From Nitrospinota bacterium (GTDB taxonomy: Bacteria > Nitrospinota > Nitrospinia > JACRGO01): DNA of 27,264 nt. Position numbers and translations under genes: made by a program. This document shows, piece by piece, positions 6,835-25,626 of this stretch. Under the pieces are notes generated by a model, which saw nothing but the letters and a program-made list of their open reading frames with translations, did not search any database and was not told where the DNA came from. Location of the stretch: positions 1 to 27,264 of the forward strand of contig JACRGO010000039.1 in NCBI GenBank assembly GCA_016212295.1, written 5' to 3'. Position 1 is the first letter of the stretch. Every line of letters starts with the position of its first letter.

Positions 6835-7110
6835 ATGGTAGACCAGGTAAATTCAAAAGGGGGACAGGGGGAAGGCCCTTTGAGCCAGTTGAAGAACCAG
6901 AGTTTTCAGCAGGCGCCAGAGAAAAAGGAAGCAGTAAAACTCAAAAAGGCGTCCGAAAGATTTGAAGATATAAAGACCGGCACCCAAAAAACCAAGGAGA
7001 AGGGAAAACCGGATATAACCAGGAAGGGGTTAAGCGCCTCAACCGGCGCCGTTCAAACCGCGGCAGCCAGTGAAACCGGGAAGGGTGGGAATTTAAAAAT
7101 TTCGGCATAG
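6835..7110 (+). CDS. Small basic hypothetical protein at the head of the flagellar cluster
   Basis: This 91-residue protein is Lys-, Gln- and Gly-rich, lacks hydrophobic segments and looks largely disordered. I do not recognise a family. The start is strong: GGAGGG at 6823-6828 sits 6 nt before the ATG. The stop is only 7 nt upstream of the FliD-like start, which lacks its own Shine-Dalgarno sequence, so the two genes are probably translationally coupled. Position behind the candidate sigma-28 promoter suggests a flagellar accessory role such as an export partner or chaperone, but that is inference from context only. Confidence 0.7.
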   Translation: MVDQVNSKGGQGEGPLSQLKNQSFQQAPEKKEAVKLKKASERFEDIKTGTQKTKEKGKPDITRKGLSASTGAVQTAAASETGKGGNLKISA

Positions 7111-7117
7111 ATAAATC

Positions 7118-9559
7118 ATGCAAATTAATCCTGTTTCTCAAAATATATTAAACATCAGCGGGAATTCCGGGAAAAGTTCCGATACCGGGGACGAACCCTT
7201 GAGGCCGATGAGAACATACAAAGGCCACGGGATGTTGGAGCAATACCCGGCCAACCTGACCGTCGCTTTCGTCAGCGCCCACGAAAGCAGACACGCCAAC
7301 AAAAACAGGTCGGAGGCCGGAAAAGAAGGAGAAATCCCCAATCAAAATATTTCCTACAAGGTCCAAATAAGCCCTGATGGACAATTGATGGCCACTGGAG
7401 GCGTTACCGAGTCCAGGAATGACGGCCAAGCAAAAAACAGTGAAAAATCCTTGGAAAACTCCAACCCTTCCGACGACGCCGAAGCGCGGACCGCATTATC
7501 TTCAGGGTCCTATGAAAAAATAATGAAAGAATTCCACCTGGCAAGGAAGAAAGAATCGCTGGAAAGGAATCTGCGGGAAAACAGCAATGCCTCTCTGCAA
7601 GGAAATAGCTTGAATAAACCCCTGGTTTCAGAAGAGGCAAATAATGCCTCATCTGATTTTACGGGAAAAAAATCAAACGGCTTGAGCGAAAAAATTGATA
7701 AAATAAACATCCGGAGGGAAATTTTACAACTGGAAGAAGAAAAAAAAGATATTTCCAGGCCGGACCAATTAAAGAAGGACGTGGAAAGCCAGGCCGCTGA
7801 TCAACAAGGGGATATAAACACTAATATACAAGCGCCTCCCACGGCCCTTCCGGAAGAGGAGCACACGGACCTATCAAACGTGGCCCCTTCTTCCTACCAC
7901 GCGGTGAAGAGGGATATACCCAACGCGGTCTTGATCAACGGATTCGGCTCGGCCTTCGAGCTCAACAGGGTCCTTAACTCGTCGGAAAGGTTCGACCCGC
8001 AATGGCCAACCCCCAAGAGCGCCGGCCTGGAGGTAAAATCCCTGCAGCAGCAGTTCGAGGCCTTGAACACCATCGGCAATCGTTTAAATAACCTGAAAAT
8101 CGTTTCCAATGAACTAGGGTCGGTTGCTTCCTTCAATACGCGGCCGGCGGTTTCCTCCTTCCCTGAGGCGGTAAACGCCCAAACCAGCGCTGGGAGTCCG
8201 GTGGGAAGCTATCGAATATCCGTTTCCAACCTTGCCCTGCCACACAAGATTGTTTCCAACCAGCATTCCGACCCCTTTGCCTCGCTTGGCCTTTCCGGCT
8301 CCTTCAAAATCAATGGATACCAGGTGGATGTGGCGAGTTCCGATTCGCTTAATTCCCTGAAGGACAAAATAAATTACGGGGAGGACGTGAACAAGAACGG
8401 GCAATTGGATTATGCCGAGGATTTGAATGGAAACGGGGGGTTGGATGTTTACCAGATAAAACCCAGCGTGGGCTCAAACCATATCAATATATATGAAGAT
8501 GTTGATTTTAGCGGGACCCTGAACGGGACCGAGGATGTTAATGGCAATCGCGCGCTGGATGGGGGCTCGGCTAGCTTAGGGGTAAAGGCGGACATTAAAT
8601 TCAGCCGGTTGATGGTGGAGACCGCTAAAACCGGCAATAACATTATTTCCGCGGACGATACGGACGGAATACTTCTGAGCCTGGGATTTTATTTTGAAAA
8701 TAACAAAGGCGTTATAAGGGAGGCGGCCCAGTTCAACTCCACCTACAGCGAGCAATACAATAGCTCCCCCACGCCGGCCCGGTTTTCCATAAACGGCGCA
8801 AACATGGAAAGGCCCTCCAATGAAGTAAGCGATGTTTTGCCGGACACCAACTTGCAATTGAAACAGGCCACCACTGATCCGGTCACTTTGAACGTTAATA
8901 ACGCGATTGATTCGACCAAGGGAAAGATCGAGCAATTCGCGGAAGAGTACAATTCCTCGGTCTCCACCATCAACAAATTTCTGGAGTTTGAAAGGACCTT
9001 GCAAGGCAACGCCATAGTCCAGAACCTTCGCGCGCAGTTGGTGGACCATGTGAATAAGCCTGTGGAATCCTTGCCCCGGACAATGAATTCATTGCAATCA
9101 GCCGGCCTGGAAATGCAAAACACGGAGAAACACGCCATCTCCTCGTTCGCCGCGGCAATGGCCTCGGACGCGGTTATGAGCAACAGCAAGGCCGTCAGCA
9201 GCTATAGGGCACAGGGAGAATCCACCATTTTTTCTGATTTGAGGGAGGTGGGAATCAAGACACAGCAGGACGACACCTTGAAGGTCAGCAGCAAAAAACT
9301 TTCCGCGGCCCTACAGGATTCGCCGATTGACGTGGCAATGGTCCATGCATCGCGTGGAAAGGGCGTTTCCGACAGGCTGGATAGCTTCCTCGGGGAAGCC
9401 TTGGGCAAAGAAGGCTCGCTGGACATGGAAAAGCAACGCATCCGGGCTTATGTCACCGGCTTTTCAAGCACCAATGAAACATATATTAATGTATCAAGGG
9501 AAAAACGCATTGCCTCAACGGCAGCCGCCACGGCAAGCGCTTTAAGCCTTAGAGTGTAA
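7118..9559 (+). CDS. fliD: Flagellar hook-associated protein 2 (FliD, filament cap) with HExxH N-terminal extension and EF-hand-type insert
   Basis: This is an 813-residue FliD-type filament cap, about 1.7 times the E. coli length. FliD homology starts near residue 272 (INGFGSAFELNRVL). It continues through the N-terminal coiled coil, the GSYRISVSNLA segment (364 on) and the usual SLNSLKDKIN piece. FliD_C spans roughly 530-800 with IDSTKGKIEQFAEEYN. Two features are unusual. Residues 1-270 resemble the SprA-related putative metalloprotease family, with HESRH (55-59, an HExxH motif) followed by SYKVQISPDGQLMATGG. Also, two pairs of adjoining 12-residue calcium-loop motifs (423-446 and 461-484; for example DVNKNGQLDYAE) interrupt the domain. 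The start has no clear Shine-Dalgarno sequence and probably uses coupling to the preceding gene. It is likely exported through the flagellar type III system and acts at the filament tip. Confidence 0.85.
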   Translation: MQINPVSQNILNISGNSGKSSDTGDEPLRPMRTYKGHGMLEQYPANLTVAFVSAHESRHANKNRSEAGKEGEIPNQNISYKVQISPDGQLMATGGVTESRNDGQAKNSEKSLENSNPSDDAEARTALSSGSYEKIMKEFHLARKKESLERNLRENSNASLQGNSLNKPLVSEEANNASSDFTGKKSNGLSEKIDKINIRREILQLEEEKKDISRPDQLKKDVESQAADQQGDINTNIQAPPTALPEEEHTDLSNVAPSSYHAVKRDIPNAVLINGFGSAFELNRVLNSSERFDPQWPTPKSAGLEVKSLQQQFEALNTIGNRLNNLKIVSNELGSVASFNTRPAVSSFPEAVNAQTSAGSPVGSYRISVSNLALPHKIVSNQHSDPFASLGLSGSFKINGYQVDVASSDSLNSLKDKINYGEDVNKNGQLDYAEDLNGNGGLDVYQIKPSVGSNHINIYEDVDFSGTLNGTEDVNGNRALDGGSASLGVKADIKFSRLMVETAKTGNNIISADDTDGILLSLGFYFENNKGVIREAAQFNSTYSEQYNSSPTPARFSINGANMERPSNEVSDVLPDTNLQLKQATTDPVTLNVNNAIDSTKGKIEQFAEEYNSSVSTINKFLEFERTLQGNAIVQNLRAQLVDHVNKPVESLPRTMNSLQSAGLEMQNTEKHAISSFAAAMASDAVMSNSKAVSSYRAQGESTIFSDLREVGIKTQQDDTLKVSSKKLSAALQDSPIDVAMVHASRGKGVSDRLDSFLGEALGKEGSLDMEKQRIRAYVTGFSSTNETYINVSREKRIASTAAATASALSLRV

Positions 9560-9662
9560 ATTCCGCCGTGGCGTGATTTTTATTAATGAAATTGCAAAAG
9601 GGCGGTGTTATATTAGCTATAAGAGGGGAAATCAATATTTAACTATATAATTGGAACAAAAA

Positions 9663-10100
9663 ATGCCTGCACGGGAAATGGAACAGTATTTAAATGAAAA
9701 GCTGGGGTGTTTTTTAAAAATACTGGCGATTGTCCAGGAACAGCAGAATTTCATACAGGATAAGAATTTAGACAGATTCAAGATTTATATCGTGGAGACA
9801 TCAAAGCTTATTGAAAAAATCAAGGAATTGGATAATAGGCATAAGGACGCCCTGGAGGAGTGGAACTCCGGAAAACTCGAAATATCCAAAAAGGCTTCCG
9901 CCATAGTGGATGGGTTAGTGGCGCGGATCAGGGAAACCATTGAAAAAATATCGAAAATTCAGCCGGAACAGATAAAACACTTCCTGGAAGAGAAGAGGCT
10001 TTTGGAAGAGGAAGTGGTGAAAATCCGCCAGGATCGGAAGTTGTTTGCCGGTTATAAAGACGCAAAAAAATCCACGGGACTTTTGGATATAAAAAAATAA
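9663..10100 (+). CDS. FlgN-like flagellar export chaperone
   Basis: This is a 145-residue, highly charged and almost entirely helical protein with long coiled-coil potential. Length, composition and the early segment with QEQQNFIQDKNLDRF followed by a Leu/Ile-rich helix match the FlgN type of chaperone, which holds hook-associated proteins (FlgK, FlgL) in the cytoplasm before export. The assignment leans on shape and on the neighbouring FliD gene. FliT-like or other coiled-coil export proteins are alternatives. I chose ATG 9663 (GGAA 6 nt upstream). An in-frame TTG at 9651 would add four residues and has no ribosome site. It probably belongs to the same operon as the preceding gene, after a gap of about 100 nt. 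Confidence 0.65.
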   Translation: MPAREMEQYLNEKLGCFLKILAIVQEQQNFIQDKNLDRFKIYIVETSKLIEKIKELDNRHKDALEEWNSGKLEISKKASAIVDGLVARIRETIEKISKIQPEQIKHFLEEKRLLEEEVVKIRQDRKLFAGYKDAKKSTGLLDIKK

Positions 10101-10116: not shown

Positions 10117-10638
10117 ATGGACATCACAGCGGTTGCGTTAAATGACGTCATAAGCGTTTACAATCGCCAGGAAAAATTGGCCCAGGCCAGAAAAAGCGCC
10201 GAGGGCAGGCTGATCAAGACGGCGGTCGCGGAACGGATAACCTTGTCCAAGGATGCCATGTCCTTATTCAGCGTCGAGCTTTCTAAGGGAACCCGCCCGG
10301 CGCCGGAGACGGTCCAAAACCTGCCCGGTGGGAGGGAATTTTATTCCGCGGCCAGGGAATATTCGAGAAATAAGCCTATTGATGATCAGCCCACCGGGCC
10401 GGCGCGGGAGACCGAGGCCGCCTCCCCGGTTTTCAGGACTCAGCCGGAAAGCGGTAGACCGGAAAGCCTCCCCACTGAAATGCGCCAAACTCCGGCTTCC
10501 TCAGCCCAATTTTCCGCTCAGTATCCACAATATTCCTTCCCTGTTCCAAGGGAGCTCCAGGCATATATCTCTAATATTCCCAAGGAAAAACGGGTCCCGC
10601 CCTGCGTCGAGGATAACCGGAGGGCGGCGGGCCAGTAG
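10117..10638 (+). CDS. Hypothetical flagellar-cluster protein, possibly FlgM-like
   Basis: This is a 173-residue soluble protein. Its first 55 residues contain INDVYNRQ-like text (ALNDVISVYNRQEK) and a following ERITLSKDA motif. These resemble the pattern seen in FlgM-type anti-sigma-28 proteins and related small flagellar proteins, where an N-terminal VYNKQ-type segment precedes ISPEA. The rest is Pro-, Glu- and Gln-rich and probably disordered, making it about twice the usual FlgM length. The gene follows the FlgN-like gene by 16 nt with GGTGA before the ATG; flgM and flgN are adjacent in many bacteria. If it is FlgM, it would antagonise the sigma factor proposed for the promoter at 6739. 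This is a tentative reading. Confidence 0.6.
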   Translation: MDITAVALNDVISVYNRQEKLAQARKSAEGRLIKTAVAERITLSKDAMSLFSVELSKGTRPAPETVQNLPGGREFYSAAREYSRNKPIDDQPTGPARETEAASPVFRTQPESGRPESLPTEMRQTPASSAQFSAQYPQYSFPVPRELQAYISNIPKEKRVPPCVEDNRRAAGQ

Positions 10639-11611: not shown

Positions 11612-11756
11612 GTAACTACTCAGGTGTTTAAGCTGAAGGCTGAAGTAAATAAACTAATAGCGCTAACTCGCCGGCTATAACTCAAAGACCCTAGGTTTTG
11701 TTTTATAACGCATTATTTTTTCCTATAGCCTTCGGCCTAAACACCTGAGTAGTTAC
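11612..11756. repeat. MITE-like inverted-repeat element D between recC and the SDR gene
   Basis: This 145-bp element has 30-bp terminal inverted arms (11612-11641 and 11727-11756) that match at 28 of 30 positions. The outer 19 nt, GTAACTACTCAGGTGTTTA, are perfect. It has no coding capacity. Its right end contains the TAA stop codon of recC (11753-11755). The terminal GTAACTAYTCAG sequence is shared with the outer ends of the element at 27015-27264. Confidence 0.85.
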
Positions 11757-14700
11757 ATCTTTTCTTCTTCCTCATGCTCAAGCAGCGGCCCGAAAATTTC
11801 CAACGCAAGCCTCCTGAATTCCTGGCCCAATGGATTCGTCCGCCTGAAACAGAGATCCAAATAAGGATCACAGCTTTCAGGTGACGCCTGGAATTCGCCG
11901 CCGAACCACTCCGCTTCCGCTTTTTCCAGGGCCTTCTCCTCGGACCAGCCTTTCCTTAAAATCGACTCGGCGTACGCAAAGGAGGATTTAGGAAAAAATG
12001 GCGCCGGCCCGCACAGCCCCTCCCAATAAACATGAAGCAGCTTTTCCAGAATTCCCTTGGGGTCTTCCACTGGAATGAATTTCAGGACCGAGTCCTCTCC
12101 AACAAAAACGCTCTTCTCCGGGCAGCCCTCCGGGGCCGCCAGATTTAACGCCAGGTGGCGGACCCAGGCAGTCAGGCGGTCGCGCGGCTTCGTCTTAGTG
12201 AAGCGATAGGACAGCAGCCCCTCGGTGGAAAGGTTGTCCAGCCTCCCCGTTATACGGAAGCCGGTGATCTCGTGATCCAGTAAGAGCGGTCCAAGGGGAC
12301 TGCCCTGGAATTGTAGTACGGCGGGAATGAATTCCTCAAGTTGTTCCCCCACCCTTTCCAATTCAAGGTCTCCAACTATTCCATGGGGCAGCGCGCCGGA
12401 CGCCTTGGCCAGGGGAAACAGGTCCCTGATCTCCCTGCCCGCAAGCCCCTTTGAGGCCAGCTCCGCCGTGACATGATACTTGTCCAGGCCGTTCAGGGAA
12501 AACGGCTCCTTCTCCCGGATATCGGAGGTTTCGTTTTCCAGCATGATTCCAAGCCGCTTTGTTAAAAGAAATTTGACGGGATTTTTAAAAAACTTTTCCA
12601 ACTGGCGTATGTCCACAGTCTTCCATGCTTCGGAAGGAGATGAAAGCCCATGCGAAATAAACGGGGCGTCCTTCTCGTGCTTTTTTCCCAGACAAAGGCA
12701 CGCCTGGAAGTTTTCCCTGGAATAGCTGAAAAGGGGGCCCGCTCCCTTGAAATATCCGGGATGAAATGCCTGCAATTTATGCATGGTCAACACATGCTCC
12801 CTGATGGACGCCTTGGAGGACAGCTCGAATTCCCGGTCCAGGTAATCCAGCAATTCGCCCACCAGGATGGAGGGCGGGGACTCGCTGTTGTCCTGGATGT
12901 TTTGTCCGGCATAGCTGATATGCAGACGGCTCCTGGCCGAAAGCAGGGCCTCAAGGAATATGTACCTGTCCTCCTTGCCCAGGGAGCGGTCGCCCCGTCG
13001 CGGATTCTTGGCCATGAGATCGAACCCGTGCGGCCTGGCCATCCTGGGAAAGGCGTTGTTGTCCATCCCTAGCAGGCAAATGGCCTTGAAGGGGATGCTC
13101 CTCATAGGGAGCATGGCCGCGAAGGTCACCTTGCCGGTGATGAATCCCGCGCCGGAGATATCCTTCCCGAACCGGCCATGAAACCATGCCTTGATGACCG
13201 GGAGTTCAACCGTCTCGTCAAAGCCGGAAATTTTTTGCTGGTCCTTTAATTCGCTCAGGGCCTTTGTAATGGAACTCAGGTCCCTTTCGCTGTCCTCTTC
13301 CTCCGCGAAAAAATCCTTTAAAAGATCCGCCAGGAACTCCGCCCACTTCTCCAGGGTCCGGCTCTCCTTTAGCCGTCCGGCGTAATGAATGAGTTTCTCC
13401 AGAAACTCCGCCAGATTTCCAAGCAGGGCAGCGTCGTCCCCTTCTATTTCGTCGAACGGCAGAATCCCCATGAAGGTCCTGTCGCCCTGTCCCTCCATGG
13501 CGTATCCAAGGAAAAGCCTGTCCAGTCCGGCCTTCCAGGTGTTTTCCCGGAACCCGGAGGTCCCCATCCCCTTCCTGTGGTCCCCGTCGATTCCCCATCT
13601 GATGCGCGTCTTCCCCACCCATCTCTTCACGGTTTCCATGCCCTTGGCGGTTATCCCGAATCTCCGCCGGAGAAAGGGATTTTCGAGCAGGGCCAGGATC
13701 TCTATAGCCCCGAACCGGCTCGTGGCCAGTTCCAGTATATCTGGCAAGGCGTCCACGATCCTGCTCTCCTTTCTTAAACTCCGGTCCGAGATGCTGAAGG
13801 GGATGGACGGCCCCTCGCCGTGCGACTCGAAGACCGCGTGGACAAAGGGCGCGTAAGCCTCGATATCGGGCGTCATCACCAGGATGTCCGCCGGGGTCAA
13901 CATGGCGTCTTCCTCCAGCATGGAGAGGATATGGTCGTGCAGGACCTCCGCTTCCCTCAATGGACTGTGACAGGAATGGATTTGGATGGAGCGGTCGTCC
14001 GCCTGCGCCGCGCGTTTTTCCGTCCCGCTTTCCCTCTCAGGGCGGAGGTTTAATATGTCGGACTGGACGAGTGAGAGCACGCTGTTTCCCTCAAGGCCCG
14101 CGCCGGAGTGGTAAAGCTCGAACTCCTCGGTGTCCAGTTCCTGGAGCATTGCAAGGAAGTCCCTGCCGTATCCTCCAAGAGAGGCAAGAAGAGAGTTTCC
14201 CTGTTCCAGATAAAGGTCCTGGGGCGGCAGGGCCTTGTCCGGGGCCTTCCCCTTTATTCTCTTCATCTCGCGATTTGAAACGATGTCGAACCAGAATTCC
14301 CTGCACGGGTTAAGGATGAAAAAATATACCTCCAGCCTGCGGGAAAGGGCGTCGAATAACTTCAGATGATAAGGGGGAAGGGAAGAGAGGCCGAATATCG
14401 ATATCCGCCCGGGAAGGTTTTCCAGGTCCGCGTCCGGGCCGCTTAGTTTACGGAGACACTCCTCCCAAAGGGCCGCCCGGTGCGACCTTTCCTTTCCACG
14501 CGCAAGCTCGCGCCAAAGCCGGGCCTGCCACTGGCGGTCCTTCCCCTGGTCCCACTCCAGGATCATGTCCGGCCGGAAGATGGAATACTGGTCAAAGGTA
14601 TCGGCTATGAGGGAGGAGAGCTGGAAGCGTTTTAGGCCGTCGCCTTCTCCCAGGTAATCGGACAGAATTTTAAACCCTTCCCCGCCAAGGCACGAGGGGA

Positions 14701-14998
14701 GGAGCTTCATTATTTGCCACCGCATGGCGGCAGGATCAAAGGCCGCGGCGTCCCTGGCGTTCCCCAGGGTCCTTTTAAATATCTCTTCAACGGTTTTTTG
14801 AGGAAACGAGAAGTCCGCATTCGCGCATACGCCCAGGAGCCGCGCCAGTTCAAGGCGTATCCAGCGTTCCATTCCCTTGCTCTGGACCACGATGGTTTCC
14901 TTTTCCAGAGGGGAGAGGGAGTGCCGTTGCGCGACCTTGGCCAGTTCCTCCACTAGGACTTCCATGCGGTTGCTGTAAAAGATTTTCAGTCCGGGCAT
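11753..14998 (-). CDS. recC: Exodeoxyribonuclease V gamma subunit (RecC)
   Basis: This 1081-residue protein has close to the usual RecC length (about 1120). RecC is the Chi-recognising scaffold of the RecBCD helicase-nuclease for double-strand-break repair. The N-terminus FYSNRMEVLVEELA and QSKGMERWIRLELA is characteristic of RecC. Further family segments include [84 protein letters not shown] and RFTKTKPRDRLTAWVRHLALN. The ATG at 14998 fits family alignment, although no Shine-Dalgarno sequence is visible. recB and recD are not adjacent: upstream is a 530-bp gap and an oppositely oriented pseudogene, and downstream is an SDR gene. The stop codon lies inside the end of an inverted-repeat element, so the last residues may be non-native. 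Confidence 0.95.
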   Translation of the reverse strand: MPGLKIFYSNRMEVLVEELAKVAQRHSLSPLEKETIVVQSKGMERWIRLELARLLGVCANADFSFPQKTVEEIFKRTLGNARDAAAFDPAAMRWQIMKLLPSCLGGEGFKILSDYLGEGDGLKRFQLSSLIADTFDQYSIFRPDMILEWDQGKDRQWQARLWRELARGKERSHRAALWEECLRKLSGPDADLENLPGRISIFGLSSLPPYHLKLFDALSRRLEVYFFILNPCREFWFDIVSNREMKRIKGKAPDKALPPQDLYLEQGNSLLASLGGYGRDFLAMLQELDTEEFELYHSGAGLEGNSVLSLVQSDILNLRPERESGTEKRAAQADDRSIQIHSCHSPLREAEVLHDHILSMLEEDAMLTPADILVMTPDIEAYAPFVHAVFESHGEGPSIPFSISDRSLRKESRIVDALPDILELATSRFGAIEILALLENPFLRRRFGITAKGMETVKRWVGKTRIRWGIDGDHRKGMGTSGFRENTWKAGLDRLFLGYAMEGQGDRTFMGILPFDEIEGDDAALLGNLAEFLEKLIHYAGRLKESRTLEKWAEFLADLLKDFFAEEEDSERDLSSITKALSELKDQQKISGFDETVELPVIKAWFHGRFGKDISGAGFITGKVTFAAMLPMRSIPFKAICLLGMDNNAFPRMARPHGFDLMAKNPRRGDRSLGKEDRYIFLEALLSARSRLHISYAGQNIQDNSESPPSILVGELLDYLDREFELSSKASIREHVLTMHKLQAFHPGYFKGAGPLFSYSRENFQACLCLGKKHEKDAPFISHGLSSPSEAWKTVDIRQLEKFFKNPVKFLLTKRLGIMLENETSDIREKEPFSLNGLDKYHVTAELASKGLAGREIRDLFPLAKASGALPHGIVGDLELERVGEQLEEFIPAVLQFQGSPLGPLLLDHEITGFRITGRLDNLSTEGLLSYRFTKTKPRDRLTAWVRHLALNLAAPEGCPEKSVFVGEDSVLKFIPVEDPKGILEKLLHVYWEGLCGPAPFFPKSSFAYAESILRKGWSEEKALEKAEAEWFGGEFQASPESCDPYLDLCFRRTNPLGQEFRRLALEIFGPLLEHEEEEKM

Positions 14999-16542: not shown

Positions 16543-16590
16543 CATTATTTGCCACCGCATTGCAGCCGGATCAAAGGCCGTGGCGTCCCT
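16543..16590 (-). pseudogene. 48-bp relic of a second recC copy
   Basis: Positions 16543-16590 match recC positions 14708-14755 at 44 of 48 bases in the same orientation. Read on the minus strand the relic encodes [16 protein letters not shown], against [16 protein letters not shown] in the intact RecC. Three of the four differences are synonymous, which points to descent from a once-functional diverged recC rather than chance. It lies between the truncated SGNH pseudogene and the hybrid kinase, and contains the kinase's stop codon. Confidence 0.8.
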
Positions 16591-19129
16591 TGATATCCTG
16601 ACCCTCAATTTCCTTCGCCAGGGTTTCCTCGGCCTTTGCGGTCTCTATTTCCAGGGCGGCAAGCAGGTCCTCCGCCTCTCCCAGTCCGCCGGCTTCTCCC
16701 AATTTCTCCAGTTCTCCGGCCAAGGCCCCGAGCCGTTCAAATCCAAAATTCAAACTTGTCCCCCGTAGGGAGTGCGCCGCCATGGCAAGGTCCTTGGGGA
16801 CCTTCCCCTCCAACGCTTTTCGAATGGAGAGCAATCTTTGCGGCAAACTGTTTCTGAAATTCCTGAGAATTGGAGTTGCCTCCTCCCCTAAATTATTTTT
16901 CAGCTCTTTTAACGTATTTTCCTGGTCCGGCATATTTTCCCAGGCGTCCAGCGCTGTTTTCACGGATTTTTCCTGTCCTGGCAAGCCGATCCAACGCAAT
17001 AGCTCAGCCTTGAGTTCCCTTATCCGTACCGGCTTTGCCAGGTAATGGTCCATGCCGGCGGCCAGGCACTTTTCCCTGTCCCCTTGCATGGCGTAGGCGG
17101 TGAAGGCAATTATTGGAGTATGCCGGCCCCGGCGGTTTGTCTTCTCCCACTCCCGGAAGGCGCTGCACGCTGAAAAACCGTCCATTTCGGGCATATTGCA
17201 GTCCATGAGCACTATATCGAAGTTTTTCTGTTTTAGTTTTTCCAAAGCCTCCATGCCGTTCCAGGCCAGTTCGGCGCTCAAACCAAGATGTTTAAGCATG
17301 CCCTGGAGCACCTGCTGGTTGGTGGGATCATCTTCCACTACCAGGAGCCGGGCCTCCTTGGAGAAAACCTCTTCGGATGCGGCGGATTCGGCCAGAGGCG
17401 CCGGTCTTTCCCCGGCCTCTTCAAACGGCAAGGCCACGATAAACGAAGATCCCCGGCCTGGGCTGCCGTGCGCCCGTATATCTCCTCCCATCAATTCCAC
17501 CAGCTTCCGCACGATTGAAAGTCCGAGGCCCGTGCCTCCGAATTTGCGGGTGGTGGACTGGTCCGCCTGGGTAAAGGGCTGAAACAGTTCCTCCAGTTTT
17601 TCAGGATCAAAGCCGATCCCGGTGTCCTTCACCTCAAAGCGGACAAGGAGCGGGGCGCCAGGCCCCGGCCCCGCGATAAGGGCCACTTCTCCCTTTTCCG
17701 TGAATTTCACCGCGTTGCTCAGAAGATTTATCAGGATCTGCCGCAGGCGGTAGGCGTCGCCCCTGACCATTCGAGGCACGCCGGGGAGAACCCTGATATG
17801 CAGAAGAAGCCCTTTTTCCTTGCTTATCTCTCCGTAGAAGAGGTCCAGTTCCGACAGTATCTGGTGGAGGTCAAAATCCGTTTTTTCCAGTTCCAGCTTT
17901 CCGGCCTCAATCTTGGAAAAATCAAGAATATCATTGAGAATGGCGAGAAGGTTTTCCCCTGACGTATGAATGGTTTCCACTTTCTTCAGTTGGTCCGGGG
18001 AAAGGTCCGCTTTCAGAAGAAGCTCGGCCATGCCAAGGACCCCGCTCATGGGGGTGCGTATCTCATGGCTCATGGAGGCAAGGAATTCCCCCTTGGCGCG
18101 GCTGGCCGATTCCGCCTCGGTTTTCGCCTTGAGCAAATCCTGATTGGCTTGATAAAGCTCCAGGCTGTTTTTTTCAATTCTGTTCTGGTAAATACGGATG
18201 GTGTACGTGACGGCAAGAAGAATAACGGCCATGATCGCCAGGCAGATCATGAAATTGAGAAGCAGCGTCTTGGGAAGTTCGGCGGCCGCGTCTTCAATCT
18301 GCTCCACGAAGACGTACCAATTCAGTTGAGGGATGAAACGGGTATTCAGAAGGACTGTTTTTCCGTTATTATTGTACTCAAAGGACCCGGAATCCGAACC
18401 GAGGATGTCTCTTGCTATGCCGCGAAGAAAGGGCTGGTCCAGGATATTCAGGCCTGGGGCCAGTGAACTGGCGCCGGAAATAATCACCGCGCCGTCGCGG
18501 CCCACGAAATATACCTGCCTGTTATACCGTTTCTGGTAGTTCTCGATCAGTTTGCCGGCGGTATTGACCGACAACCCGACCCCGGTGGCCCCTATGAAGT
18601 TTCCGCTGTAATCGAAGACCTTGTAGTTGATGAAGATCGTCATCAAGTCCTTGTTGGCAAGGTCCGGGTCGATATTCGTTTCATAATCCTCCTTCATGGA
18701 CCTTACGCGGAAATACCACTTGTCGCGCGGCTCTTCCTCGAGGACGTGCTTCAGGACCCCATTGCAGTGGTAGTAGGCGCGGGTCCGTTCGGACACGAAA
18801 AAGCTGGTAATGGCGTTGTATTTTTCCTTCATCCTCCTGAGGTAGTTGGTGATTTGTTCAACATCGTTTTCCCCGGCGAGGACCCAGTCCCTTAAAAAGG
18901 TATCGTTGGCCATGACGGAGGAAACAAGGACCGGGGTGAGCAGGTCGTTCTGGATTTCCGAATATATGTTGTCGCTTGTGAGAGGAAGCTGCTTGGAGAT
19001 GATGTCTTTTTTCACGGACGCCTTGAAAACAAAATAGCTGACAAGGCTGGTGGCTAGAAAACCTGACACCAGAAGCACGCCAATCAATAAGATCAGCCGG
19101 TTTTTTTGAAACAACGGGTGCGATTTCAT
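16571..19129 (-). CDS. Membrane hybrid sensor histidine kinase with dCache-like sensor, REC and HPt domains
   Basis: This 852-residue phosphorelay sensor has membrane segments near 13-36 and 288-312 flanking a roughly 250-residue periplasmic Cache-like domain (WYFRVRSMK and GATGVGLSV segments). These are followed by a linker, HisKA with H355 in SHEIRTP, and HATPase ([11 protein letters not shown]-box, DTGIGF G1, [11 protein letters not shown]2). REC follows with D643 in [11 protein letters not shown] and K699, and a C-terminal HPt has H786 in [13 protein letters not shown]. The full His-Asp-His chain is in one protein, and the output regulator is not identifiable. The start ATG 19129 has GGAG about 8-12 nt upstream. 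The last six codons and the stop fall inside the recC relic, so the native C-terminus may have been altered, though the HPt is complete. Confidence 0.93.
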
Positions 19130-21204: not shown

Positions 21205-23643
21205 ATGAAAAAAATTCTCGTGGTTGAAGACGACGAAAATTTCCGGTGCATCCTGGAAATTTCCCTTGGGGACCAAGGATACGAAGTCATCCATGCGGAA
21301 ACCGGGGAAGCCGGGCTTCAAAAGGTCCGCTCCGCCAGGCCGGATATCATACTGCTGGATATTTTGCTCCCGGATATGAACGGCTTCGAGGTATGCCGGC
21401 GCCTTAAGTCCGATCCGGAATGCCAATCGATCCCAATTCTCATAATGACAACCCTTGGGGACTCGGAGCATACCGTCAAGGGCCTTTCCAGCGGGGCGGA
21501 CGACTATGTGAATAAGCCGTTTGACATGCCGGTGCTCCTGGCGCGCGTGCGGACCCACATCCAGAAGAAAGAACTCCATGACTCCATAAAGGAGGAAGAA
21601 AAGGAAAAATCCAAACTACTCGAAATTTCCCAGGCCCTCTCCTCCACCCTGAACCCCCAGGAAATTCTCTTTGCCATAGTGTCGAAAATTTCCGAAACCA
21701 TCAATGTCGAACGCTGCTCCATCATCTATGCCGACCCTGAGAAAAAAGAAGGGCATGTCATGGCCTCCCACGACGCGGAAGACGTCAAGTACCTGGAAAT
21801 CGATATCCAAAAATATCCGGAAATCAAAAAGGCCCTGGTGGAAGGAGAAGCGGTGCTCATAAGTGACGCCTCAAGCGACCCTATTCTTCACGGGGTCCGC
21901 GAGGCATTGAGGCCCGCTGGCGTGAAATCCATCCTGGCATTGCCGGTTATTTTCGAGGACAAAATAATAGGTTCCCTGGTGCTTCGGGCCTCGCGGCGGG
22001 ACCTCCCCTTTAATGAGCGGGAGATGCGTTTCTGCCGTCTCATCTCACACCTCGCCGCCTCTCCACTGAAAAACGCCTTCCAGTTCCAAAGGCTTAAACG
22101 GCTGGGCGAGGATGAACAAAAATTCCGCCTGATGGCGGAGGGCGAGCTCAAGGAAAGCGAGGAGAAATTCAGGACCCTGGTGGAAAATTCACCGGACTGC
22201 ATTTCCCTTGTTGAATTGGACGGAAAACTTGCTTATATGAATTCCGAGGGCCTGAGACAAAACTGCTTGAGTGACGCGGCGGAAATAAGGGGATGCGATT
22301 TTTCCATGGGACTTGAAGGGGAATCCCTGTATTCTGTAAAAGAGGCTTTTGAAGAATCAAAAAAAGGCCGGACCACCCATTTTGAGTGCCTGACAAGGTC
22401 TCGTGATGGAAAGGAAAATTGGTGGGATTCTTTTTTTGTGCCCCTCCGGGATGGAAAAGGAAAAACAGCAAGAGTTATCCGGGTATGCAGAAATATTACA
22501 AAGCAGAAACAAACCACCGAGGAGCTGCGAAAACTTTACATGGCTGTGGAGCAAAGCCCGGTGAACGTTGTGATTACCGATTCGGACGGAAATATCGAAT
22601 ACATCAATCCCAATTTTACGCGGACCACAGGCTATGCCCTGGAGGAGGCCCTGGGGAAAAACCCGCGAATTTTAAAATCCGGGGAAATGCCTGCCGAGGG
22701 ATACAAAAAAATGTGGGAAACCTTGGTCACCGGAAATGAATGGCGAGGGGAATTTCATAATAAAAAGAAAAACGGGGAGCTCTACTGGGAATCGGCGATC
22801 ATATCCCCTGTAAAGGACGCGCTGGGAAAAATCACGCATTATCTGGGCGTCAAGGAAGACATAACCGTACGCAAGCGGATGGAAAAGGAACTGGAGAAAT
22901 CAAGGGAAGAGGCCATGATGCAGACCCTTTTCGCGCAGAGGCTCTCCGCCCTGGCGGCCATATCAGGTGGGATCTCCCATGAGCTGAGCCAGCCCCTGAG
23001 CGTTATCGGCCTCCAGGCGGAGACCATGAAGGCCATGATGCAAAAGGGCAGGTCCATTGAACCGGATTCGCTGTCGGAAAACATGGATAAGATCATTCAG
23101 CAGATCGATAGGGCCGTGAAAATAATAGAGCACATGAAGGAATTTTCTTCCGGGGCCGAGGGTTACGAGAAAAAGACCTTGCCGTTAAAGGACATGGCTG
23201 AAGGGCTCAGGAACCTGATAAGCGCCCAGTTGAAAGCCCACAGGATTGATCTCAGGATAAACGTCCCGGAGGAGCTGACGGTCCTTGCGAACCGGAACCG
23301 GATGGAACAGGTCCTGCTCAACCTGATCTCAAACGCCAGGGACAGCCTGGTTGAAAAACGCTCTTCCGGCCCGGAAGCGGCTGTCAGGGAAATATCCCTT
23401 CGAGGTTTTCTGGAAGGGCAGCGGATTATACTGGATGTGTCGGATACCGGGACCGGAATTCCGGAGGCCGTCAGGGCAAGGCTGTTCGATCCCTTTGTCA
23501 CGAGCAAAAAGGCCGGTAAGGGGAGCGGCCTGGGGCTTTCCATCTGCCAGAAGATCCTGCGGGACTACGGAGCGGAAATTGAACTTCTCTCCACCGGGAC
23601 GGCAGGAACCGCGTTTAGAATAAAGTTTCAAAAGGCGGAGTAA
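21205..23643 (+). CDS. REC-GAF-PAS-PAS histidine kinase
   Basis: This 812-residue soluble sensor kinase has no membrane segment. REC is at about 1-118 (D52 in LLDILLPDMNG, K104). GAF is at about 140-295, PAS at about 320-432 and a second PAS at about 445-558 (VNVVITDSDGNIEYINPNFTRTTGY). HisKA has H592 in SHELSQPLSV, and HATPase has N710 in NLISNARDS, DTGTGIP and GSGLGLSI. The HELxQPL form of the H-box belongs to the kinase group that usually pairs with NtrC-type regulators, and such a regulator is the next gene but one. ATG 21205 follows GAGGCGGTGA. The N-terminal REC suggests input from another phosphorelay. A promoter at 20908 and repeat element B precede it. Confidence 0.93.
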   Translation: MKKILVVEDDENFRCILEISLGDQGYEVIHAETGEAGLQKVRSARPDIILLDILLPDMNGFEVCRRLKSDPECQSIPILIMTTLGDSEHTVKGLSSGADDYVNKPFDMPVLLARVRTHIQKKELHDSIKEEEKEKSKLLEISQALSSTLNPQEILFAIVSKISETINVERCSIIYADPEKKEGHVMASHDAEDVKYLEIDIQKYPEIKKALVEGEAVLISDASSDPILHGVREALRPAGVKSILALPVIFEDKIIGSLVLRASRRDLPFNEREMRFCRLISHLAASPLKNAFQFQRLKRLGEDEQKFRLMAEGELKESEEKFRTLVENSPDCISLVELDGKLAYMNSEGLRQNCLSDAAEIRGCDFSMGLEGESLYSVKEAFEESKKGRTTHFECLTRSRDGKENWWDSFFVPLRDGKGKTARVIRVCRNITKQKQTTEELRKLYMAVEQSPVNVVITDSDGNIEYINPNFTRTTGYALEEALGKNPRILKSGEMPAEGYKKMWETLVTGNEWRGEFHNKKKNGELYWESAIISPVKDALGKITHYLGVKEDITVRKRMEKELEKSREEAMMQTLFAQRLSALAAISGGISHELSQPLSVIGLQAETMKAMMQKGRSIEPDSLSENMDKIIQQIDRAVKIIEHMKEFSSGAEGYEKKTLPLKDMAEGLRNLISAQLKAHRIDLRINVPEELTVLANRNRMEQVLLNLISNARDSLVEKRSSGPEAAVREISLRGFLEGQRIILDVSDTGTGIPEAVRARLFDPFVTSKKAGKGSGLGLSICQKILRDYGAEIELLSTGTAGTAFRIKFQKAE

Positions 23644-24228
23644 AAAGGCAAATCACAAAAATCAAATTACAAATTACAAATAAATTCCAAATAGCAAAAA
23701 ACAAATTACAAACAGAACCCAAAAAACAAATAAACGCCAAAACACAATGGTTAAGGATTCAAATCCCAAAACAGTCTATGATTTAGAGGAGCGCGCTTTT
23801 CAGTTTGCTAAAAATGTCGCGAAATTTTGCAAGAAATTACCGAAATCTTTTTCCAATATCGAATATGTGAAGCAACTAATTCGTTCTTCGGGCTCTGTCG
23901 GAGCGAATTATATTGAAGCCAATGAGGCCTTGGGCAAAAGAGATTTTTCCATGAGAATCAAAATAAGTCGAAAAGAAGCCAAGGAAAGCGCTTATTGGTT
24001 AAGGCTGATAATGGAGACCAATACCAGCGACCATGAAAAAGAAGCGGGACTTCTCCAAAACGAAGCCATTGAGCTGAAAAAAATATTTTCTTCAATCTTC
24101 GAAAAATCCAAATAACGCTTCTTAATGTCTGTTTGTAGTTTGGGTTTTATTTGCTATTTGTACTTTGTTATTTGGTTCTTATTTGTATTTTGTTTTTTGG
24201 GATTTATTTTGGTGTTTGGACTTTGAAA
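23644..24228 (+). mobile_element. Four-helix-bundle (IVP-type) gene flanked by long AT-rich inverted repeats
   Basis: The small gene at 23747 is flanked on the left (23650-23740) by CAAATTACAAATA / CAAATAGCAAAAAACAAATTAC text. On the right (24125-24225) is its approximate reverse complement (GTTTGTAGTTTGGGTTTTATTT, GCTATTTGTACTTTGTTATTT). The arms are about 90 bp and imperfect. The unit sits exactly between a histidine kinase and an NtrC-type regulator and ends at the regulator's start codons. The inverted flanks, different base composition and position suggest an inserted element. No transposase is present, so movement would need help in trans. Confidence 0.5.
23747..24115 (+). CDS. Four helix bundle protein, 23S rRNA intervening-sequence (IVP) / bAvd-like family
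   Basis: This 122-residue all-helical protein of the TIGR02436 type was first known from intervening sequences in 23S rRNA and is also related to the accessory protein of diversity-generating retroelements. The family pattern is plain: YDLEERAFQFAKNVAKFC, QLIRSSGSVGANYIEANEALGKRDF, then RISRKEAKESAYWLRL-type text. The first residues upstream of the ATG are AT-rich repeat with no Shine-Dalgarno sequence, which is usual for copies embedded in such repeats. Members are thought to form basic pentamers that bind nucleic acid. No reverse transcriptase or variable repeat is nearby, so a retroelement role is not supported here. Confidence 0.92.
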   Translation: MVKDSNPKTVYDLEERAFQFAKNVAKFCKKLPKSFSNIEYVKQLIRSSGSVGANYIEANEALGKRDFSMRIKISRKEAKESAYWLRLIMETNTSDHEKEAGLLQNEAIELKKIFSSIFEKSK

Positions 24229-25626
24229 ATGATGAACGAACAAAAGACCCCCCCCATGAATCTCCCCCGCGTCCTCATCGTGGATGACGAAGAAGTCATT
24301 CTGTCCAGCCTCTCCGACTTTCTCCGCCATGAGGAATGGGACGTGGTCTGCGCCAATTTAGGAGAGGAGGCCCTTAAAAAACTTGAACTGGAGGACATTG
24401 AGCTGGTCATAACCGATATCAACATGCCTGGCATGGACGGCCTGACCCTCCTTCAAAAGATAAAGGAAAAATTCCCTGACACCGAGGTGATAGTCGTGAC
24501 CGGTTTCAGCACAGAGGAGACGGCTGTCCAGGCATTGAAGAGCGGGGCCTTTGATTATTTCCGCAAGCCCTTCAAGGGGACCGAGATACTGAGGTCCCTC
24601 ATGCGCACGAAAAAAGTGGTGGAGCTGAAGGCCAGATGCAGAAGATTGGAGGCCCTGGCCTCCCGCCTGGCCGGGGATGAATCCAGGCACCGTTTTCTGG
24701 GAAATTCCCCGGCCGCCGTATCATTCATTAAGCAACTGGAAAAAATTTCCGCGAGCCCTGAAACCACGGTCCTGCTCATAGGCGAGACCGGGGCCGGAAA
24801 GGAGGTCGCGGCCAGGGCCGTTCATCAGATGGGCAAAGCCGCCGGGAAGCCTTTCATCGCCCTCAACTGCGGGGGCATAGGAGAGAGCATGCTGGAAAGG
24901 GAACTCTTCGGACATGAAAAGGGGGCCTTCACCGGCGCGGACAGGCGGATGCCGGGCGTTTTCGAAATGGCCCTGGATGGGACCATCCTCCTGGATGAAA
25001 TAACGGAAATGACTTTTTCCGGCCAGGGCCGCCTGCTTCGCGTGCTGGAGGAAAGGACTTTCAGAAGGCTGGGCGGTCACCAGGAGATTTCGCTGGGGGG
25101 GACGCGGATCATCGCGGCAGCCAATAAAAACATGGAGGACCTCGTCGCGGGCGGGAAATTCCGTGAAGACCTCTATTACAGGCTTAAGGTCATCCAGGTC
25201 CGTGTCCCGCCTCTGCGGGAAAGAAAAGAGGACATCCTGCTGCTGGCCCGGCATTTCCTGGGCGTCTCCGGCATAACGCCCCTTCCCTTCCTCTCGCCGG
25301 AAGCGGAGCAGGCCCTGTTGGAATATCATTACCCTGGAAACATCCGTGAGCTGCGGAATATCATCCAAGGCGCCGCCGTGTTCAAGGCTGGACAAACCAT
25401 CCAGCCTTCCGATCTTCCGTTCAGAAAAGGCCCATTCGCGGGGAAGCCTCCGGTCCTTGCGCCCCGGACGGAGGAAATGCCCGCGGACGGCCTCAATCTG
25501 GAGGAGCAGGAAAAGGCCATTCTTTGCAGGGCGCTGAAACTCCATCCCACCCACTCCGCCGCGGCCAGGGCCTTGGGCATCTCCTCCCAGGCCCTGTACC
25601 GGAAGAAAGAAAAGCACAATTTATAA
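24229..25626 (+). CDS. NtrC-family sigma-54-dependent response regulator
   Basis: This 465-residue activator of RNA polymerase-sigma-54 has a receiver at 13-125 (phospho-acceptor D63 in VITDINMPGMDG, K113). The AAA+ domain runs from about 155 to 385 with Walker A GETGAGKE (185-192), the sigma-54-contacting GAFTGA (232-237), Walker B GTILLDEI and the arginine-finger region. A C-terminal Fis-type HTH (about 423-465, HSAAARALGISSQALYRK) binds DNA. I start at the first of two consecutive ATGs (24229). The frame is open further upstream to 24151, but that part is translated AT repeat. It follows the IVP element and probably partners the kinase at 21205. A sigma-54 promoter occurs downstream at 26107. 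Confidence 0.93.
   Translation: MMNEQKTPPMNLPRVLIVDDEEVILSSLSDFLRHEEWDVVCANLGEEALKKLELEDIELVITDINMPGMDGLTLLQKIKEKFPDTEVIVVTGFSTEETAVQALKSGAFDYFRKPFKGTEILRSLMRTKKVVELKARCRRLEALASRLAGDESRHRFLGNSPAAVSFIKQLEKISASPETTVLLIGETGAGKEVAARAVHQMGKAAGKPFIALNCGGIGESMLERELFGHEKGAFTGADRRMPGVFEMALDGTILLDEITEMTFSGQGRLLRVLEERTFRRLGGHQEISLGGTRIIAAANKNMEDLVAGGKFREDLYYRLKVIQVRVPPLRERKEDILLLARHFLGVSGITPLPFLSPEAEQALLEYHYPGNIRELRNIIQGAAVFKAGQTIQPSDLPFRKGPFAGKPPVLAPRTEEMPADGLNLEEQEKAILCRALKLHPTHSAAARALGISSQALYRKKEKHNL

Follow-up and report, generated by a model that had tools for sequence, protein, structure and literature searches.

An open reading frame (ORF) at 7118–9559 (+ strand, ATG start) encodes an 813-residue protein in which a small N-terminal module carrying an HExxH motif is joined through a linker to a FliD-like part. 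This architecture was defined by ORF translation, Pfam, and relatives. The ORF lies in a 27,264-nucleotide stretch of Nitrospinota DNA, referred to here as the window. The host protein belongs to a second family of FliD-type proteins, FliD2, described here and present beside the normal flagellar cap. The evidence is evenly balanced on whether the module is, as proposed, an exported, flagellum-associated zinc-site module mounted on a FliD paralogue rather than on the cap and remotely resembling SprA-related proteins. What the sequences themselves establish is the fusion, the family to which the module belongs, FliD2 as a clade, the FlgN-like gene next to it, and the joint occurrence of module and flagella. 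Gene position, gene fusion, and co-occurrence tie flagella to a putative metalloprotease family that is widespread and has no known role.

The conserved module spans residues 30–101 (7205–7420, +) and was delimited by alignments and genome searches; it is the most conserved segment of the protein. It contains a GHG motif at residues 36–38 (7223–7231, +), the HExxH sequence HESRH at residues 55–59 (7280–7294, +; translation and alignments), and a predicted β-hairpin, NISYKVQISPDGQLMATGG, at residues 77–95 (7346–7402, +). The initial annotation had pointed out HESRH followed about 20 residues later by a second segment and both are present in the translated ORF, the latter as SYKVQISPDGQLMATGG at residues 79–95. 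Residues 1–131 have no significant match in Pfam or NCBIfam, and profile scans of related modules likewise assigned no family at significance. A variable charged linker follows at residues 102–250 (7421–7867, +). FliD homology had been placed from about residue 272. Pfam recognises FliD_N later, at residues 307–373 (8036–8236, +), and similarity specific to FliD2 begins near residue 252. FliD_C is matched by Pfam at residues 554–788 (8777–9481, +).

When GTDB contigs were scanned with the complete window protein, they yielded one relative over the full length, from a Nitrospinia MAG of a sister species (L001, 4878–7379), and two Zixibacteria loci that match only its N-terminal segment. The sister protein has the same fusion at 53% identity. 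Identity between the two is 69.9% in the module, 38% in the linker, and 54–56% in the FliD parts, making the module the best-conserved part of the protein in this comparison. The two Zixibacteria proteins match residues 33–95 (E 9e-9) and 29–131 (E 3e-5) and both retain HExxH, as HENRH and HERHH. They are separate proteins of ~250 residues encoded directly 3' of flgN-flgK-csrA-flgL-fliW, with gene names assigned by eye from translations. A third Zixibacteria copy is likewise standalone and follows fliW, while flgN-flgK-csrA-flgL were seen upstream in the two Zixibacteria loci with long flanks. The Leptospira interrogans plasmid pLiSL25 encodes a further standalone copy (L033, 7950–8618), which has YIGHGQLE and HELGH; on this plasmid record its gene adjoins one for a PilZ-domain protein. 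Beyond the sister species, the fusion recurs in a genome of an independent lineage, G443, where a FliD-like protein (L044, 8863–10785) carries QGHGQIE and HEQRH. No relative of the module was found in viral contigs.

Across a six-sequence alignment the invariant positions are Y, GHG, E, V, HE..H, A, and G. The SPDG motif of the hairpin region varies, being SSGG in the sister species, and in the first four sequences only G88 and G95 are invariant there. The fusion is regarded as real because the module is one of a widespread family, most of it without names, that is nearly confined to flagellated bacteria. The tree of the short module is compatible with either a single origin or several origins of its fusion to FliD2.

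The claim that the module is fused to the cap protein stands as far as a FliD-type host is concerned but not for the canonical cap, as the host is a second paralogue in a separate clade. The canonical FliD of the same genome is a 574-residue protein starting STFSVSGLSSGVDF, encoded on another contig and adjoining a FliS-like gene. In phylogenetic analysis, a branch supported at 100/100 separates the 11 FliD2 rows from the others; this clade comprises the window protein, those Nitrospinota paralogues that were tested, and members from G443, G497/G359, and G412. The window protein shares partial FliD_N and FliD_C homology with canonical FliD. However, it lacks the canonical GLxSGLD-type start, with FliD_N matching only from profile position 28, and it carries EF-hand-like inserts. 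Its own clade and the presence of canonical FliD elsewhere in the genome rule out the window protein as the canonical cap. No paper on a FliD paralogue of the FliD2 kind was found in the open-access literature searched.

Most FliD2 members bear inserts of the form D.N.NG.LD..ED in the alignment. In the window protein these EF-hand-like acidic repeats lie at residues ~422–482 (8381–8563, +; limits approximate) and include the EF-hand/dockerin-like loop DVNKNGQLDYAEDLNGNGGLD among others. The loops, common to most FliD2 proteins, suggest calcium binding. The state of the module differs between FliD2 proteins. The genus of the window and G443 have it intact, G497 and G359 have a degenerate form, and G015 has a GHG remnant, whereas G412 and most Nitrospinota FliD2 proteins have no module.

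Directly downstream of fliD2 in the window is a 149-residue FlgN-like protein (9651–10100, +), a candidate export chaperone whose match to PF05130 in Pfam is weak (E 1.9e-4, 22.3 bits, under the 30.5 cut-off). A short gene of similar size, either FlgN-like or in the corresponding position, comes after fliD2 in L001, G443, G412, and other Nitrospinota as well. Next in the window is a 173-residue protein (10117–10638, +) with a FlgM-like start by eye and no Pfam family, and a similar gene is found at the same place in L001, G412, and G010. Immediately upstream of fliD2 is a 91-residue ORF (6835–7110, +), also without a Pfam family, which has a 90-residue counterpart in the sister species (L001, 4541–4813). 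Flagellin genes lie close to fliD2 in G010, G043, G005, G359, and G497, with two of these flagellins checked by Pfam and the others read by eye. A separate observation concerns an unnamed protein of ~206–210 residues near fliD2, encoded directly upstream in G443 (L044, 8221–8844) and also found in G010 and G043 (L163, 3888–4508 and L164, 12275–12907). These proteins are similar by eye and the two scanned have no clear Pfam family.

Profile searches across several hundred genomes uncovered a wider family around the module. One group of seven sequences, from Nitrospinota, Zixibacteria, Leptospira, and G443, keeps both GHG and HExxH, with the two histidines and the glutamate of HExxH invariant. 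GHG occurs only together with HExxH (7/7) and was never seen without it. In a larger group the motifs are Y..DPGE together with either HExxN or QExxN, and most of its members are standalone proteins with a charged tail, probably a coiled coil by eye. More distant members retain HExxH with other upstream motifs, in the forms HEGEH, HELQH, and CxxC...HEKRH...CPECG, and are likely further branches of the same superfamily. These distant members, at L125 6966–7598, L126 2127–2726, L127 6870–7547, and L129 6465–6911, have no clear Pfam or NCBIfam name. HExxH is missing from many members of the family, among them the G359 and G497 fusions to FliD2, and these degenerate members still keep the V, E, A, and hairpin glycine region. 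As many flagellum-linked relatives have lost HExxH, the role shared by the family is probably other than proteolysis, while members with an intact site may be enzymatic.

Module-positive genomes nearly all have flagella. The module profile matched 35/386 genomes, of which 34 encode FlhA compared to 181/386 overall. The single module-positive genome lacking FlhA is an 81%-complete MAG, and other module-positive members of its genus have FlhA. Fisher's test by genome gives p 2e-11, although the genomes are related and represent 14 families, so this value overstates independence. Counted by genus, FlhA accompanies the module in 21/21 (p 1.5e-7), a value that likewise ignores kinship among related genomes. 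SprA-related proteins show a comparable pattern. FlhA is present in 10/10 of the non-Nitrospinota genomes in which PF12118 was found, and within Nitrospinota PF12118 occurs in 27/43 genomes with FliD2 versus 1/17 without.

The initial annotation had likened the module to the SprA-related family (PF12118). A profile search of residues 1–131 gave no PF12118 match at E≤1, nor did the full-length window protein at the same threshold. The genome of the window has no PF12118 match at E≤10, and the sister genome has one elsewhere in its sequence. Profile–profile comparison gave a different picture. A 15-sequence module set aligned to PF12118 members drawn from the surveyed genomes scored 27.9 in hhalign (probability 48%), against a best of 10.6 among 60 nulls in which HExxH was left in place and the other columns were shuffled. 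With only the seven HExxH sequences of the set the score was 17.8 and the null maximum 12.2. The hhalign register places both HExxH and the GPDG..YAVGGEV segment of PF12118 against their counterparts in the module set. With scores above the nulls and no direct match, the comparison is correct as remote homology but not as membership.

The two kinds of protein share HExxH followed by a Y..GPDG..YAVGGEV-type segment and both co-occur with flagella. Conversely, the SprA-related sequences read are without GHG and have their own conserved downstream segment. SprA-related proteins are predicted to be zincin-like (PMC3650047). In Campylobacter jejuni, the SprA-related CJM1_0395 requires an intact flagellum to appear in the supernatant (PMC5223770). 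In the open-access literature searched, this secretome study was the single experiment connecting a SprA-related protein with flagella. Among curated families, the best weak match was to DUF6782 (PF20573), a putative metallopeptidase family. This was limited to one Zixibacteria relative (E 0.002, 17.8 bits, cut-off 27) and the window protein itself has no DUF6782 match in Pfam.

AlphaFold2 models of the module, built with four sequences, and of a Zixibacteria standalone protein have mean pLDDT values of 53 and 59. Their low-confidence core (about 60–78 in the Zixibacteria protein) comprises a short strand at YKGHG, a helix carrying HExxH, and the β-hairpin, which is in register with the SprA-related GPDG..YAVGGEV segment. 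The predicted strands come after the helix, at low confidence, and the usual zincin order differs. Foldseek against the PDB returned nothing at E≤0.001, which is not evidence for a new fold, and VIA-align gave a best Z of 3.6 to unrelated folds only. As GHG is seen only with HExxH, H37 is the best candidate for a third metal ligand; the GHG sequences may share ancestry, so this co-occurrence is supportive rather than proof. The module probably binds zinc, while its being an active peptidase is a possibility that we consider somewhat doubtful.

It is hypothesised that the module forms a compact metal site built from the YKGHGMLE strand, the HExxH helix, and the β-hairpin. Zinc would be held by H55, H59, and probably H37, and E56 would be the glutamate of catalytic type. 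Export of the protein by the flagellar apparatus is rather probable; it would use the type III machinery, and the FlgN-like protein would be its chaperone. The exported protein would then sit on or near the filament, perhaps at the tip as the initial annotation suggested, and the module would act outside the cell. Members keeping the site would most likely have a peptidase-like or zinc-dependent binding activity. Given the many relatives that have lost HExxH, the ancestral common role is more likely to have been flagellar binding or targeting than proteolysis. More tentatively, the large, mostly unnamed family, with SprA-related proteins as one branch, could be a general flagellar accessory exported by the flagellar apparatus, which in some lineages would be mounted with its zinc site intact on FliD2, so that a structure borne by the flagellum gains a specialised head for catalysis or metal binding.

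It is extremely improbable that HESRH arose by chance in an ordinary cap protein whose N-terminal extension is disordered. Curated profiles do miss the region and the structure models are poor, but homologues across phyla keep the motif, and some of these are independent proteins encoded next to flagellar genes. Conservation is also highest in the module, and the host differs from the canonical cap. The cross-phylum conservation rules this explanation out. Another explanation has the module as an active secreted metalloprotease on flagellum-borne FliD2 that cuts extracellular targets. The invariance of HExxH throughout the GHG group and the zincin-like prediction for SprA-related proteins both favour it, as does the proven precedent of proteolytic flagellins. 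In flagellinolysin, an M9 gluzincin domain with proven activity lies inside the central hypervariable region of flagellin (PMC5595980). Both systems have a metallopeptidase-type HExxH borne by a flagellar protein. Here, however, the module is small, N-terminal, carried on a FliD paralogue, without a match to a known peptidase family, and known from sequence; in Pfam the window protein matches FliD domains and no flagellin domain. The module is also only ~75 residues long, its third ligand is just a candidate, the models are poor, and many flagellum-linked relatives have dispensed with HExxH. An extracellular protease of this kind is considered unlikely.

The same losses of HExxH support a structural or targeting function for the module, such as in export or in docking onto part of the flagellum, with any bound metal playing a structural role or none. 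Many members from flagellated genomes have a degenerate HExxH with the remaining pattern kept, and the FliD2 proteins of G359 and G497 carry the module in this degenerate form. Against this, one group drawn from several phyla keeps GHG and HExxH without exception, and no part of the protein is better conserved than the module; both points suggest that a chemical role is under selection in the GHG group. A structural or targeting domain is a conceivable but less than convincing account of the window protein.

The rest of the window is ordinary. It encodes RecC (11753–14998), a hybrid histidine kinase with Cache and Hpt domains (16571–19129), a GAF/PAS histidine kinase (21205–23643), and a sigma-54 response regulator (24151–25626).
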